Shown: piece after piece, positions 4,158-12,477 of the stretch
How positions within the stretch are numbered: position 1 is the first letter of the stretch
Layout: each line of letters opens with the position of its first letter
From: a bacterium
Lineage (GTDB): Bacteria > Zhuqueibacterota > QNDG01 > JAGLOF01
Assembly: GCA_016934955.1 (NCBI GenBank)
Contig: JAFGRY010000049.1
Coordinates: forward strand, 125,503-189,502
Reading direction: 5' to 3'
DNA: 64,000 bases
The notes under the pieces: model-generated
The model's database searches: none
What the model was told of the DNA's origin: nothing
The model's input: the letters and a program-made list of their open reading frames with translations, nothing else
Made by a program: the position numbers and the translations under genes

Positions 4158-6302
4158 TTATGCAATCGTCGCTACGGGAATACTGAAGGAAAATACGGAT
4201 CCGACTCCCAGTTTGCTGTTGACTCTGATGGTGCCCCCGTGCTGTTCCACTATCTCCCGGGCGAGAGCGAGGCCGAGACCCGACCCTTCAGTGGCCTGGT
4301 CGCTCTCTTCGCTTTCGGCAACGCGGTAAAACTTGTTGAAAATATAGGGCAGCGATTCTTTGGGGATTCCGTATCCATTATCGATAATGCTGACCTGGAT
4401 GCGGTTCTCCTCCACTTTCAGTTCAATGCCGATCTTTGAATTGACCGGACTGTATTTGACCGCGTTGCTGAACAGGTTCAGAATGACCTGTTCGATGAAG
4501 TCCTGGTCGCCGGAGGCGAGGGGCAGTTTCTCAGGGATCTCCGTGATCACCTTGATATTTTTCTGCTTTGCCATCCCGTTGTGGAAGAGGGTGATTTTCT
4601 CAACCAGCTGTTTCATGTCGAACGGCAGCATGTTGATTTCCGTCTTTCCGGCTTCGAGGCGGGAAAGATCGAGGAATTTATTGACCAGCTCTGTCAATCT
4701 GCTCGATTCATTGAGAATCACCTGGGCATATTCTTTTGCCTGATCCTCGAGCACATGTGAATCGAGAAGCAGTTCACTGAAACCGTAAATGGACGTAAGC
4801 GGTGATTTCAATTCATGGGCAACCATGGAAATGAGTTCGGTCTTGATCGTATCGGCTTCTTTTTCTTTGGTGATGTCGCGAATGATGGTGACAACACCTG
4901 ACGCGAGCCCTTCATCGCTGATGACATTTGCCGCGTGGGCAAGGAACACCTTCGGTTTTCGAAATCCGGCGACGTTGAACTGGAACTCGGCGTGATTCAC
5001 CGTGCTTCCCTTTCGCACCGATTTCACGAGTCTTGTGAGCTCGGGGATCTTCAGAATATCTTTCAGCGGCTTGTCGATGGAGGCCGGTTCCTGAACGGCA
5101 AACCATTTTTCCGTGACGGGATTCAGCATGAGAACGCAGTCGTCCGAATCGGTGACGATGATGCCGTCGGCAATGTTTTTGAGAATCGTTTCGACCTTGT
5201 TTTTCCGGTTGACGATGCCGTGAACATCGATCTCCCTGAATCGCACCATCTCCGAGGACATGTAATTGAACACCTTCACCAGGCGGTTCAATTCCCTGTC
5301 TTTCGACTCCGGGATCATTTCGTCGAAATTACCCCTGGCGATCTCGGATGCCGTATCGATCAGCGCCCGCACGGGTCTGTCGAGCCGGGGCGAGAGAAAA
5401 CGGGCAAAGAGACCGGAAACGAGAAGCAGCAGAACCAGGTGGAGCGGTCCGGGCCAGCGGATGCGCCCGCCGCCCGTGGGGCCGCCCGAACCGGCTGCCG
5501 CCGATTCCACCGGGACGGTGATGATGACGGACCAGGGAAGATTCGGCAGTTCCAGTCTGGCTGCACGTATACGGCCGTCGGTCAGTTCGGCCTTGTTTTT
5601 CAGGGAAACGGCACTGCCGGAGGGCGGAGAGCCGGCAAGAAGAAATCCGGCCGTATCGACGATTGCGATTGATTCACCTTTCTTCTCCAGGGACCCGGTC
5701 AGCAGGGAGAGGGAATCGAGGGACAAAAACAGTTCCAGAGCCTGGCGCGTCCGGCTGTCGGGCAGGAAAATACCCAGCGAAACAATGGGCGCTTCCGTGC
5801 CGGCACCGGACAGCTGCCTTCTCGCGTAGAGCTCAGTCGCACCGGCCGGACGGTCCAAGGGGCCGGAATAGACGAATTGAATGATTCTGGCCTGGGGCAT
5901 GCCGGTTATGCCGTGTGCCGCCAGTTCCTCCGGCACGGTGCTGCGCAGCACCCGCAGCGGATTATCTCTGTTCCTGTACCAGACGACAGCGCTGAAGATA
6001 TCCCTCCTCCGGTCCAGCCAGCGCTTGATCATACTCTCATCGTTTCCCCCGGATGAATCGAGAGCCGCCCCGAGGGCAGTAAGCTGCTGAAGCCGGGGGT
6101 CGGTCCAGTGCAGGGTGATATTCCGGGAGATCTCCTCGGCGCGCTGTTTCAGAGAAACCGGCGGAGGCGCCGGAGTGCGGCGGACCGGAGCCCTTCGTCC
6201 TTCGAGCAGCCCGGCCAGCAGCAGAACAAGTGCGCCGGAAAGAAATAATCCGATCCAGCAGATGATGAACGAGCGTTCCCGAAATATGGATGTCTTTTTC
6301 AT
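4158..6302 (-). CDS. Transmembrane sensor histidine kinase (HAMP-PAS-HisKA-HATPase)
   Basis: A 714-residue membrane kinase. Membrane segments lie at about residues 11-30 and 287-303 and enclose a periplasmic sensing region with Cache-like character. A HAMP linker (about 303-355), a PAS domain (about 368-478), HisKA with His496 in MVAHELKSPLTS, and an ATPase domain with NLFSNAVKYSP, DNGYGIP and GSGLGLAL follow. The layout resembles PhoR/VicK kinases. The ATG at 6302 is preferred over further upstream starts because MKKTSIF leads straight into the first membrane helix and lies 16 nt after the GGDEF gene. Signal and partner are unknown; neighbours suggest a shared signalling operon. Confidence 0.9.
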   Translation of the reverse strand: MKKTSIFRERSFIICWIGLFLSGALVLLLAGLLEGRRAPVRRTPAPPPVSLKQRAEEISRNITLHWTDPRLQQLTALGAALDSSGGNDESMIKRWLDRRRDIFSAVVWYRNRDNPLRVLRSTVPEELAAHGITGMPQARIIQFVYSGPLDRPAGATELYARRQLSGAGTEAPIVSLGIFLPDSRTRQALELFLSLDSLSLLTGSLEKKGESIAIVDTAGFLLAGSPPSGSAVSLKNKAELTDGRIRAARLELPNLPWSVIITVPVESAAAGSGGPTGGGRIRWPGPLHLVLLLLVSGLFARFLSPRLDRPVRALIDTASEIARGNFDEMIPESKDRELNRLVKVFNYMSSEMVRFREIDVHGIVNRKNKVETILKNIADGIIVTDSDDCVLMLNPVTEKWFAVQEPASIDKPLKDILKIPELTRLVKSVRKGSTVNHAEFQFNVAGFRKPKVFLAHAANVISDEGLASGVVTIIRDITKEKEADTIKTELISMVAHELKSPLTSIYGFSELLLDSHVLEDQAKEYAQVILNESSRLTELVNKFLDLSRLEAGKTEINMLPFDMKQLVEKITLFHNGMAKQKNIKVITEIPEKLPLASGDQDFIEQVILNLFSNAVKYSPVNSKIGIELKVEENRIQVSIIDNGYGIPKESLPYIFNKFYRVAESEESDQATEGSGLGLALAREIVEQHGGTIRVNSKLGVGSVFSFSIPVATIA

Positions 6303-8989: not shown

Positions 8990-9307
8990 ATGGGAACAAT
9001 CATCATCGACGAACGGGAATTTGAAGTTGACGGAGACGGGTTTCTCCAGGATCCTCATATCTGGGATAAAGAGGTAGCGCAGCTGCTTGCCAGCCATGAC
9101 GGGACCGGCGAACTCAATGATGTGCACTGGAAGGTAATCAATTTCATTCGCGAATACTGGCTCGAGAATGATATGGCACCCATGGTGCGCGCACTCTGCC
9201 AGGCGGCCGGTATCCGGCTGCGGGAAGTATATGAATTGTTTCCCATGGGCCCTGCGAAAGGCGCCTGTAAAATCGCCGGTCTTCCCAAGCCGGACGGATG
9301 CGTCTAA
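8990..9307 (+). CDS. dsrC: DsrC/TusE-family sulfur carrier protein
   Basis: A 105-residue DsrC-family protein. These small carriers hold sulfur as a persulfide or trisulfide on cysteines of a flexible C-terminal arm. The arm is complete: Cys93 and Cys104 in CKIAGLPKPDGCV, separated by ten residues. TusE-type proteins, which act in tRNA thiolation, commonly keep only the last cysteine, so two cysteines favour a true DsrC-like redox role. The N-terminal DEREFEVDGDGFLQDP is also characteristic. It is the first gene of a three-gene unit with membrane and iron-sulfur subunits related to DsrMK, its known partner in sulfate reducers. Confidence 0.92.
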   Translation: MGTIIIDEREFEVDGDGFLQDPHIWDKEVAQLLASHDGTGELNDVHWKVINFIREYWLENDMAPMVRALCQAAGIRLREVYELFPMGPAKGACKIAGLPKPDGCV

Positions 9308-9328
9308 ATTAACCTGCGGGGTGCGTGC

Positions 9329-9958
9329 ATGACCGTTTGGAACGCTGTTCTTCTGACCGCATTTCTCATTTCAGCGGTCTCTTCCCTGACCCTGTTCCTG
9401 AAAACAGTGGCAATGCGGGACGACTATGACCCTTCGGAACCGAAAGGGAGCATTCCTCCCGCCGTCCTCTATGCGTATACGGGAGCGATGTCGCCGCTGA
9501 AGAAAGAGACTGCCAACAGGCACTGGCCCACCTACACAGCCGGTATGCTCTATCACGCGGGCATCTTTTTCTCGTTTTTCTGGCTGCTGATTCTGGCAAC
9601 CGGGATCGGGCTTCCCGCCGTTCTCAATCGTCCCTCCGGCGTGCTGCTCGCCTCGACGGCCCTCTGCGGCCTCGCCATTCTTCTGAAACGGGCCGTCAGC
9701 AGAAAGATGCGCGCCCTGTCGCATCCCGATGACTATCTCAGCAATATCCTGAGCACCGGATTCCAGGTCGTCACCGCGGTGACGCTGCTTTCCGGAAGCG
9801 GAACTGCGGTGCTCTTTTTCTACGCATCGCTGCTTTTCCTTTACATACCGGTGAGTAAACTCAGACATGCCGTCTTTTTTCCTCTTACACGATTCTATCT
9901 TGCACTTCACTACGGCAGGCGGGGCGTCTGGCCTCCACCCGAGAGGAGCGGTCTATGA
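9329..9958 (+). CDS. DsrM-like membrane subunit (cytochrome b / NarI-type)
   Basis: A 209-residue integral membrane protein with about five hydrophobic segments (approximately 5-25, 75-95, 101-118, 140-160, 162-180). Histidines in HWPTYTAGMLYHAG at the edge of a helix could bind haem b, as in DsrM, HdrE and nitrate reductase gamma subunits. It is shorter than typical DsrM (over 300 residues). The gene overlaps the next by ATGA, which pairs it with the DsrK-like subunit. The expected role is electron exchange between membrane quinone and the cytoplasmic iron-sulfur subunit. The family assignment rests partly on context. Confidence 0.7.
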   Translation: MTVWNAVLLTAFLISAVSSLTLFLKTVAMRDDYDPSEPKGSIPPAVLYAYTGAMSPLKKETANRHWPTYTAGMLYHAGIFFSFFWLLILATGIGLPAVLNRPSGVLLASTALCGLAILLKRAVSRKMRALSHPDDYLSNILSTGFQVVTAVTLLSGSGTAVLFFYASLLFLYIPVSKLRHAVFFPLTRFYLALHYGRRGVWPPPERSGL

Positions 9959-11247
9959 CTATTTCCGATGAAAGGAAGCGGCAGGGCCTCGATCTGCTTT
10001 CTGAAAAAATGACCGGGAAACTCCGCACCCATCTGAACAGCTGCGTGCATTGCGGTCTCTGCGGAGAGTCCTGTCACTACTACCTCACCTACGGCGAGGA
10101 CAAGTACCTTCCCGGGCACAAGGTCGATCTTATCGCCGGGATCTACCGCCGCTACCACACGCTCATGGGCAGGGTCGCACCCTCCTGGATCGGCGCTCAT
10201 GATCTGGACGATGAGCGCATCGACGAGATGATCGATGTCATCTACGGCGGCTGCGCCATGTGCGGACGCTGCACCCTGCACTGTTCGGTGGGTGTCGACA
10301 TCTCTTTTCTCGTCAGGACCGCCAGATCGATGCTTGCCGCCATGGATCTTGTGCCTGCGAGCCTGCAGTCAACCGTGGACGCCGCGGTCACCACCGGCAA
10401 CAATATGGGGATCCCCCAAAAGGACCTCGTGGACACCCTGCTGTGGCTCGAAGAAGATCTGCACATGGAGCCGGGATTTGAACATGCCGAGATCCCCCTG
10501 AACCGTAAAGGTGTCAATGTGCTCTACACGCTGAATCCCCGGGAACCCAAATTTTTTCCCATGTCGATCAGCGCCATGGCCATGGTGTTTCATGCCGCGG
10601 ATGAGTCATGGACGCTTTCCACCGATTATTACGACGTCACGAACTATGCCTATTACTCCGGAGACGACGGCATCGCCGCCGAACTGGTACAGCGGCTGTT
10701 CAATGAGGCGGGCAAGCTCGAAGCGAAAACGCTTGTTCTTGCCGAGTGCGGTCACGGACCGCGGGCGATCCGCTGGGAAGGTCCCCGCTGGATACAGACC
10801 CCCTATCCTTTCCGGGCGCTGACTGTTGTGGAGCTGATGGCCGAGTATATCAGACAGGGGCGAATTACTCTCGATCCGGCAAAAAACCGGGAGACGATGA
10901 CACTCCACGATCCCTGCAATCTGGCGAGAGACGGAGGAGTGATCGAAGAACCGAGGTTTATCCTGAAGCATGCGGCGGCGAATTTCATTGAAATGACACC
11001 AAACCGGGAGAACAACTACTGCTGCGGCGGAGGCGGGGGTCAGCTGGCGATGGGTGAATTCGCCGAGCGGCGCCTGCGGGTCGCCGAACTGAAGGCGGAC
11101 CAGATTCGCCGCACGGGGGCGAAGATCGTGGTCACCCCCTGCCATAACTGCATCGATCAGCTTATGGAGGTCAACAAGGAATATCAGCTGGGCGTCAAAA
11201 TCAAGACTATGGCCGAAGTGGTGGCGGACGCCCTGGTTCTGCGGTAG
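9955..11247 (+). CDS. DsrK/HdrD-like iron-sulfur oxidoreductase
   Basis: A 430-residue cytoplasmic catalytic subunit of the HdrD/DsrK family. Two 4Fe-4S binding motifs are at C30-x2-C33-x2-C36-x3-C40 and C100-x2-C103-x2-C106-x3-C110. A C-terminal CCG-type domain has HDPCN, NYCCGGGGG and TPCHNC, matching the special cluster that handles disulfides in heterodisulfide reductase and DsrK. With the membrane subunit and DsrC it forms a plausible quinone-DsrC disulfide/trisulfide oxidoreductase. No DsrAB sulfite reductase or DsrJOP is encoded in the window, so the source of the sulfur substrate is open. Succinate/glycolate-type HdrD relatives are alternatives made less likely by the adjacent dsrC. 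Confidence 0.82.
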   Translation: MTISDERKRQGLDLLSEKMTGKLRTHLNSCVHCGLCGESCHYYLTYGEDKYLPGHKVDLIAGIYRRYHTLMGRVAPSWIGAHDLDDERIDEMIDVIYGGCAMCGRCTLHCSVGVDISFLVRTARSMLAAMDLVPASLQSTVDAAVTTGNNMGIPQKDLVDTLLWLEEDLHMEPGFEHAEIPLNRKGVNVLYTLNPREPKFFPMSISAMAMVFHAADESWTLSTDYYDVTNYAYYSGDDGIAAELVQRLFNEAGKLEAKTLVLAECGHGPRAIRWEGPRWIQTPYPFRALTVVELMAEYIRQGRITLDPAKNRETMTLHDPCNLARDGGVIEEPRFILKHAAANFIEMTPNRENNYCCGGGGGQLAMGEFAERRLRVAELKADQIRRTGAKIVVTPCHNCIDQLMEVNKEYQLGVKIKTMAEVVADALVLR

Positions 11248-11264
11248 GTGCCGTATATGAACGT

Positions 11265-11297
11265 AAAAACCCGGTATCGCGCGATACCGGGTTTTTT
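11265..11297. terminator. Bidirectional intrinsic terminator between dsrK-like gene and cysteine desulfurase
   Basis: The stem AACCCGGTATCGC / GCGATACCGGGTT is a perfect palindrome flanked by A and T runs, so it can end transcription of both convergent genes. Confidence 0.93.
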
Positions 11298-11316
11298 ATT
11301 GTCGAAAAAGCGGTGC

Positions 11317-12477
11317 TCAGCGTTTGATGGCGGCAATCTCCGTGACGGCTTCGATGGCCGCATCGATATGCTCCTCGGTATTGAAGGGCCCGAGGCTGAA
11401 CCGCACGGTACCGTGGATCTCCTCCGTGCCCATCTGCCGGTGTACCAGCGGAGCGCACTGCAGCCCGGTCCTGCAGGCGATGTGGTAGTCGACATCGAGC
11501 ATGGTCCCCACGTCCCCTGCTTCCCAGCCTTCGATGTTGAAACTGAGCACGGCATTGTGATGTTCGGCCGAGTCGGCGCAGTAGAGTGTCACCTTGTCGA
11601 TTCCGGCAAGTCCGTCCCTCAGTTTCTGCCAGAGAGCCATTTCCCGTGCATGGATGGCGTCAAGCCCCTGTTCGGCAATCCATTTTTGTCCGGCATGCAG
11701 ACCTGCGACGCCCATGACATTGAGCGTGCCGCATTCCATTCTGTAGGGAAACTCATCCAGGTGGTACGGATAGGCGGAACGGACGCCGGTGCCGCCGTGA
11801 CGCGTCCCTTTTATAGGTACGTTCTCTCCGATATAGGATCCACCGATTCCTGTCGGCCCCATGAGACATTTGTGGCCGGTGAAGGCAAGCAGGTCGATAC
11901 ACATTGCCTGAATATCGATCGGCTGGGCGCCGGCCGTCTGGCTGGCATCAACGGCGAACCAGATCCCTTTTTCCCGGCAGATCTTTCCCACTTCGGCAAT
12001 CGGCTGCACCGTCCCGATCACGTTGGAACCGTGGTTCATGATCACCATTTTCGTATTCGGCCTGATTGCCCTTTTGATCTCATCGGGATCCATATATCCA
12101 CGATCATCGAACGGGACATAGGTGACGTCCGACCAGCCGTCACGCTGAAATACGTTCAGCGGACGCAGCACGGAGTTGTGCTCGAGGTTGGTCGAGATCA
12201 CATGGTCGCCTTTTTCGACCATTCCCTGGATAATCATGTTAAGCGAATCGGAAGCGTTATAGCTGAAGGTGAGATAGTTGGGGTTGATACCGTTGAAAAA
12301 TTCCGTAAGCATTTTACGCGTGCCGTGAACGACCTCTTCCGTTTCGAGGGTGGCATCATAGCCGGATCGTCCGGGATTGATGCCGTGGTGCATGTAGAAT
12401 TCGTGCATGAAATCGTAGACTGACTTCGGTTTGGGATACGTAGTGGCTGCATTGTCCAAATACATCAGATTTTCCAT
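11317..12477 (-). CDS. Cysteine desulfurase (class V aminotransferase fold)
   Basis: A 386-residue PLP enzyme that releases sulfur from cysteine as an enzyme persulfide. It begins MYLDNAATTYPKP, has the PLP lysine in FTGHKCLMGPTGIGG, and the reactive cysteine in the RTGLQCAPL loop near residue 340, as in SufS/CsdB-type and related group II enzymes. No iron-sulfur scaffold gene is adjacent. It ends back to back with the dsrC-dsrMK-like unit, and desulfurases are known donors to TusE/DsrC-type carriers, so a functional link is possible but inferred. On its own strand it follows dnaE by 48 nt. Confidence 0.9.
   Translation of the reverse strand: MENLMYLDNAATTYPKPKSVYDFMHEFYMHHGINPGRSGYDATLETEEVVHGTRKMLTEFFNGINPNYLTFSYNASDSLNMIIQGMVEKGDHVISTNLEHNSVLRPLNVFQRDGWSDVTYVPFDDRGYMDPDEIKRAIRPNTKMVIMNHGSNVIGTVQPIAEVGKICREKGIWFAVDASQTAGAQPIDIQAMCIDLLAFTGHKCLMGPTGIGGSYIGENVPIKGTRHGGTGVRSAYPYHLDEFPYRMECGTLNVMGVAGLHAGQKWIAEQGLDAIHAREMALWQKLRDGLAGIDKVTLYCADSAEHHNAVLSFNIEGWEAGDVGTMLDVDYHIACRTGLQCAPLVHRQMGTEEIHGTVRFSLGPFNTEEHIDAAIEAVTEIAAIKR

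Follow-up and report, generated by a model that had tools for sequence, protein, structure and literature searches.

A two-cysteine DsrC, a membrane iron-sulfur pair and a linked cysteine desulfurase: a possible cysteine-fed redox module with a desulfurase in the place of DsrAB

What does a DsrC protein with both of its tail cysteines do beside a cysteine desulfurase and away from any sulfite reductase? DsrC is taken to mark either sulfite reduction or sulfur oxidation. Its first cysteine was described in 2012 as confined, a few exceptions aside, to organisms with DsrAB (PMC3397948). The question is raised by a stretch of 64,000 nucleotides of bacterial DNA (hereafter the window; assembly GCA_016934955.1, contig JAFGRY010000049.1, positions 125,503 to 189,502), in which dsrC is followed by genes for a membrane subunit (M) and an iron-sulfur protein (K) and is faced by a gene for a cysteine desulfurase (CsD). 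The four genes, the head-on desulfurase included, lie where a first-pass annotation made from the letters of the window had placed them:

8990-9307, plus strand: two-cysteine DsrC (PF04358) of 105 amino acids, with CysA at C93 and CysB at C104, the penultimate residue
9329-9958, plus strand: M, a membrane subunit of 209 amino acids with a predicted five-helix, possibly NarI-like fold (weak TmcC/HmcE matches, structure model)
9955-11247, plus strand: K, an iron-sulfur/CCG protein of 430 amino acids (Pfam Fer4_8 and CCG)
11265-11297, between the convergent units: bidirectional intrinsic terminator, AAAAACCCGGTATCGCGCGATACCGGGTTTTTT (sequence, folding z-score)
11317-12477, minus strand: CsD, a cysteine desulfurase of the TIGR01977 family, 386 amino acids (TIGR01977 score)

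The plus-strand genes are tightly packed, with a gap of 21 bases between dsrC and M and an ATGA overlap between M and K, while CsD converges on them and shares with them the terminator, which is perfect in both directions (folding z-score -4.9 for the stretch 11248-11318). The set is flanked upstream by gcvPB, pointing away from dsrC, and downstream of CsD by dnaE and murA. It is a new combination of known parts, which we read, with slightly less than even confidence, as a four-part redox module fed by cysteine, where the desulfurase takes the place of DsrAB and cysteine serves as a respiratory electron acceptor.

The argument begins with the conservation of the gene set. A scan of GTDB genomes with an alignment of three K sequences gave 173 loci, of which 80 were kept, and a six-frame hidden Markov model (HMM) search was run over 82 loci comprising these hits, the window and a further locus of its phylum, G070 (L037 and L077 are possibly one locus, and L068 is that of genome G002). 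The K-selected loci come from Aminicenantes, other Acidobacteriota, Bacteroidales, Zixibacteria, KSB1, Eisenbacteria, Planctomycetota, Fermentibacteria, Ignavibacteria and one Clostridiales metagenome-assembled genome (MAG), and an arrangement that recurs in dozens of genomes across many phyla is not a product of chance. M and K were present in all 82 loci, DsrC in 75 and CsD in 67; as the loci were picked by K, neither DsrC nor CsD was selected for. Where at least 1.3 kb was available on both sides, CsD adjoined DsrC-M-K in 49 of 54 loci, and in the 67 loci that hold it CsD was convergent downstream (45), co-directional downstream (18) or co-directional upstream (4). The neighbourhood check proposed in the first-pass annotation thus returned the desulfurase as a conserved partner in three arrangements, and a linkage kept through such rearrangement argues strongly for a functional tie. 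A divergent type of M-K in Acidobacteriota also keeps both DsrC and CsD, either as M-K-DsrC with CsD convergent (L184) or in the order DsrC, CsD, M-K (L185).

The four proteins also share their history, as their pairwise distances correlate over 59 loci (r 0.77-0.89, with K-CsD at 0.885 and DsrC-CsD at 0.805, against a Mantel null maximum of 0.19), and they have therefore been inherited or transferred together. Within the window's order the module occurs in 2 of 12 genomes, that of the window (G000) and G002, and a CsD orthologue in exactly those two (79% identity), the next best desulfurases of the order being at most 35% identical to CsD; in G002 everything from gcvPB to murA is retained, a matter of ordinary local synteny. 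That CsD is a housekeeping neighbour, adjacent to the unit and functionally uncoupled from it, would suit the convergent units of the window with a terminator between them, but the linkage across many phyla, the strength of the distance correlation and the absence of the orthologue from the ten order members that have no module make it very improbable.

An independent sample was obtained by seeking DsrC in 393 Bacteroidales genomes; roughly a third of the sampled genomes carried a DsrC-family gene of some kind. Among the best 30 loci, which were inspected, M stood beside DsrC in 28 and the first cysteine was present in all 30; a few of these 30 genomes are also in the K-selected set. Twenty of the regions were extended and 14 of them held CsD: 13 carried all four genes, and one, at a contig end, carried DsrC and CsD without M-K. 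The other regions had DsrC-M-K (three), DsrC-M (two) or DsrC alone (one).

DsrC of the window scored 119 bits with PF04358, and its tail, GACKIAGLPKPDGCV, holds CysA and CysB 11 residues apart, so that the two-cysteine DsrC of the first-pass annotation was borne out; both tail cysteines were found in 70 of 75 module DsrCs. Whether the protein would branch with TusE was a question set beforehand. On the TusE equivalog PRK11508 it reached 76 bits, below the cutoff of 191, and in a tree of 73 rows, whose one-cysteine set came from the window's phylum and did not include E. coli TusE itself, it grouped with dsrAB-associated DsrC: the two-cysteine DsrCs, from modules and dsrAB-associated together, split from the one-cysteine proteins with support of 100/100. 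The monophyly of the module DsrCs is not settled by the 105 columns, with a single clade not rejected (approximately unbiased test, p-AU 0.68).

This split bears on a biosynthetic sulfur relay, for tRNA thiolation or Fe-S assembly, in which DsrC would act as TusE and M-K would reset its thiols. Passing sulfur from a desulfurase to DsrC/TusE is indeed the logic of the Tus relay (PMC3397948), and the module resembles IscS-TusA-TusBCD-TusE-MnmA in that a persulfide from a desulfurase would be handed to a DsrC-fold protein. However, the DsrC of the module has both cysteines and stands apart from the one-cysteine proteins, its unit has no TusABCD or MnmA and includes a membrane CCG reductase, which is not part of the known relays, and the genome already holds a one-cysteine DsrC and two further desulfurases besides CsD. 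We therefore consider such a relay rather improbable.

Around DsrC itself a small protein was also observed, of about 80 amino acids and with conserved cysteines (CKRY and CPDFV motifs), encoded immediately 5' of dsrC in six Bacteroidota loci; it gave no Pfam match in the one copy scanned. In one of the loci DsrC has the tail KPFTCD in place of KPDGCV and stands alone with the small protein (L244, DsrC at 4770-5087):

L098 4244-4531: small cysteine protein
L244 4519-4764: small cysteine protein
L074, L080, L084 and L095: small cysteine protein

We then considered what the membrane pair may be. M had no Pfam family match and only weak matches to the equivalogs TmcC (25 bits, cutoff 240) and HmcE (25 bits, cutoff 275), and its earlier label as DsrM did not hold. 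Its AlphaFold model (predicted local distance difference test, pLDDT, 93.5) has five long helices, and the top eight structural matches in the PDB were all NarI chains, with probabilities of 0.99-1.00 but E values of just 0.03-0.10. NarI is the b-type subunit of nitrate reductase. Two histidines of M, H76 and H180, are conserved in 96% and 100% of the 82 loci and are candidate heme b ligands.

K contains Pfam Fer4_8 and CCG domains, with two 4Fe-4S motifs (C30/33/36/40 and C100/103/106/110) and a CCG site (C265, C321, C356-C357, C396, C399) whose cysteines are all invariant (41 aligned sequences; 82 loci), and in this it is like the HdrD/DsrK-type CCG reductases. The earlier description of K as HdrD/DsrK-type was thus correct as to the CCG site (50.7 bits), but the DsrK label failed on both score and phylogeny: K reached 250 bits on the DsrK model (cutoff 400), on which canonical DsrKs of Acidobacteriota reach up to 741, and in a tree of 61 rows the module Ks formed a clade of their own (support 99) apart from the DsrK clade (100). 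The labels DsrM and DsrK were rejected on these HMM scores and the K tree. The nearest named relatives are in the TmcABCD and Hmc complexes, with K at 305 bits on TmcB (cutoff 735) and 301 on HmcF (cutoff 750), and by these scores M and K appear closer to TmcC/HmcE and TmcB/HmcF than to DsrM/DsrK. TmcB is predicted to interact with DsrC, but both K and M fall far below the equivalog cutoffs and the unit of the window has no multiheme cytochrome gene. The AlphaFold model of K (pLDDT 94.5) matched EtfD, LutA and HdrB (HdrB E 6e-6); with HdrDE/HdrABC it shares the CCG site, and it differs from them in its proposed substrate, which would be a protein disulfide on DsrC and not CoM-S-S-CoB. K of the window groups with Planctomycetota, Zixibacteria, Eisenbacteria and Bacteroidota sequences in a clade of 16 rows and shares 67% identity with a protein from Phycisphaerae, a pattern indicative of horizontal transfer. 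Module-type M-K pairs also occur without nearby DsrC or CsD (L114, L119 and L116, the last cut on the left), and in two Bacteroidales loci (L231, L232) the gene after DsrC-M encodes not K but a metallo-beta-lactamase-fold protein.

CsD scored 419 bits on TIGR01977 (cutoff 377) and carries the active-site cysteine in CRTGLQCAP, 99% conserved across module loci, and the likewise conserved pyridoxal phosphate lysine in FTGHK. It did not reach the cutoff of the SclA selenocysteine lyase model NF040779 (320 bits, cutoff 525). CsD is thus above the cutoff of its family, whose NCBIfam entry, a hypothetical equivalog, gives no partner, unlike CsD, which is tied to DsrC-M-K. Apparent K-CsD fusions in high-GC loci proved to be shadow open frames of automatic gene calls, the six-frame search returning separate genes. 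Two apparent DsrC-CsD fusions (L024 301-1779 in G001, contig C46; L025 244-1866 in G039, contig C26) join a DsrC-fold domain without the cysteine tail to a NifS-type desulfurase. These were not counted as linkage, because of the missing tail, the NifS type and the other gene family alongside; a similar gene of unassigned family adjoins in both genomes.

We searched the genome of the window (4.4 Mb, 52 contigs, 90% complete) family by family. The sulfite-reductase domain PF01077 had no match in this 90% complete genome, while control genomes gave matches, and dsrA (TIGR02064) was above cutoff in none of 50 module genomes, which are mostly draft MAGs but uniform in this absence. The test for dsrAB, on which the first-pass annotation had made its reading depend, came out in its favour. 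Its further statement that DsrEFH-type genes are missing is true of the unit but not quite of the genome, where a DsrE2-family gene lies beside a second DsrC-family gene with a single cysteine, itself next to an SQR-like flavoprotein; this trio is a second and separate DsrC system in the phylum. The module resembles DsrAB-DsrC-DsrMK(JOP) in its two-cysteine DsrC and in a CCG Fe-S protein with a b-type membrane subunit expected to reduce it, and differs in having a cysteine desulfurase, in showing no dsrA above cutoff, in a K that lies below the DsrK cutoff and in another clade, and in an M that no DsrM model matched. A full dissimilatory Dsr locus, dsrAB to dsrMKJOP with dsrC and without the K of the module, was observed in another genome of the phylum (L032, G017, contig C58). 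The additional features of the genome that matter below are:

G000, contig C35, from 61239 (L030 5979-8035): SQR-like flavoprotein, one-cysteine DsrC and DsrE2, with the same trio in G010 (L033)
G000, contig C19, 2386-7640 (L230): a heterodisulfide-reductase/hydrogenase cluster in a bacterium, with, one after another, the large subunit of an Mvh-type NiFe hydrogenase, HdrC, HdrB, HdrA and FlpD

How could a desulfurase feed DsrC? Enzymes of the cysteine desulfurase family form a persulfide from cysteine, and the first cysteine of DsrC permits sulfur to be expelled by disulfide or trisulfide formation. From the observed parts, conserved residues, linkage, co-inheritance and absence of dsrA we infer the chemistry, the direction of the electrons and their carrier. 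CsD, to judge by its family, would turn L-cysteine to L-alanine and keep the sulfur as a persulfide, which would pass to the penultimate cysteine of DsrC, a step with an in vitro precedent in A. vinosum DsrC, persulfurated at this residue in tests with another desulfurase, IscS, and cysteine, or with sulfide (PMC3397948). The second DsrC cysteine would then attack, releasing H2S and leaving an internal disulfide (or trisulfide), and the oxidised DsrC would be reduced at the CCG site of K, as homology to TmcCB, DsrMK and Hdr suggests; in sulfite reducers DsrMK(JOP) acts as the reductase of the DsrC trisulfide (PMC10504309), and a role in reducing DsrC is predicted for both Tmc and DsrMKJOP (PMC10553843). 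Electrons would reach K through heme b of M from a membrane carrier, probably menaquinol, so that cysteine + 2[H] would give alanine + H2S and DsrC would do the same job as in sulfite reduction. Cysteine as an electron acceptor for growth has been discussed for an Acetomicrobium MAG (PMC10579422), though not in connection with this module. Also in favour is the cysteine synthase gene at five of the module loci (below). The evidence supports a redox unit that is compact, linked to DsrC and outside sulfate respiration, and that probably draws on cysteine sulfur; of the earlier interpretation the sulfur-linked unit and its desulfurase partner stood, but not the DsrM-DsrK identity.

Several points weigh against this mechanism. 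The first cysteine is missing from five DsrCs, two of which keep CsD, and although loss of CysA (or of DsrC) covaries with missing CsD (Fisher p 2e-4), this carries little weight here, as four of the five rows without CysA belong to a single clade. K and M are distant in orthology from DsrC-reducing complexes. CsD forms a transcription unit of its own in the window, convergent to DsrC-M-K, and co-expression of the two is thus not assured. By a rough estimate based on textbook formation energies, the cysteine/(alanine + H2S) couple has a potential of about -0.1 V, in the neighbourhood of menaquinone, and hence the energy yield would be small and the loop possible but not rich. A search of the 90% complete genome for quinone synthesis genes returned no menD and no mqnA/D, but two MenA-like prenyltransferases below cutoff. 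The identity of the electron carrier is thus unproven, and coupling to the quinone pool, as first proposed, is not shown. Nqr-type genes (L030) and the putative b-type membrane subunit do imply a quinone.

The HdrABC-Mvh cluster of the same genome, a potential alternative partner of DsrC, also counts against the cysteine-fed mechanism and underlies its main rival, in which DsrC is a thiol-disulfide electron shuttle between K-M and a soluble HdrABC-Mvh hydrogenase, carries no sulfur, and CsD serves cluster assembly only. K and M alone would suffice for the membrane step, and DsrC has been reported to interact with FlxABCD-HdrABC in D. vulgaris (PMC10504309). A shuttle leaves unexplained, however, why CsD is retained beside DsrC-M-K through rearrangements and why it is found with DsrC in a pair without M-K, and HdrABC was looked for in the window's genome alone; we regard it as unlikely, though a serious contender.

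The electrons could also run the other way, with DsrC thiols or persulfide oxidised at K and electrons delivered to the membrane carrier. Oxidative relatives of DsrMK are known in sulfur oxidisers (PMC10504309), and the trio with the SQR-like flavoprotein provides sulfur handling in the same genome. However, no DsrAB or other enzyme was found that would carry the oxidised sulfur onward, and the potentials favour reduction of the DsrC disulfide by quinol, so weakly that the direction is open; an oxidising module seems to us improbable, to much the same degree as the relay or a shade more so.

We found no description of this gene set in the open-licence literature, though one may exist in subscription journals or preprints. 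The module breaks the rule tying the first cysteine to DsrAB in several uncultured phyla and comes with a likely alternative sulfur donor, and it could account for sulfide formed from cysteine in genomes without sulfite reductase. For metagenomes it brings a caution, that dsrC with a DsrMK-like pair need not mean sulfate reduction. It also offers the step from DsrC to the membrane in three proteins with a defined organic substrate, simple enough for reconstitution and testable with purified proteins.

Taken further, and more tentatively than the cysteine-fed module itself, cysteine might be a terminal electron acceptor acting through DsrC, in a respiration without sulfite, sulfate or elemental sulfur that has spread horizontally among uncultured anaerobes. 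Where a cysteine synthase is at hand, sulfide could be recycled and activated serine reduced to alanine, with sulfur merely the catalyst. Three loci have such a gene between K and CsD and two more have it next to the block; in the two copies scanned it scored above cutoff as cysK:

L090 11284-12342: cysteine synthase, between K and CsD
L106 5710-6768: cysteine synthase, between K and CsD
L115 2393-3448: cysteine synthase, between K and CsD
L091 and L113: cysteine synthase, beside the block

The presence of this gene at the module suggests that some lineages may make cysteine for the purpose and recycle the sulfide. The cysteine synthases of L090, L106 and L115 have an additional cysteine-rich C-terminal tail.

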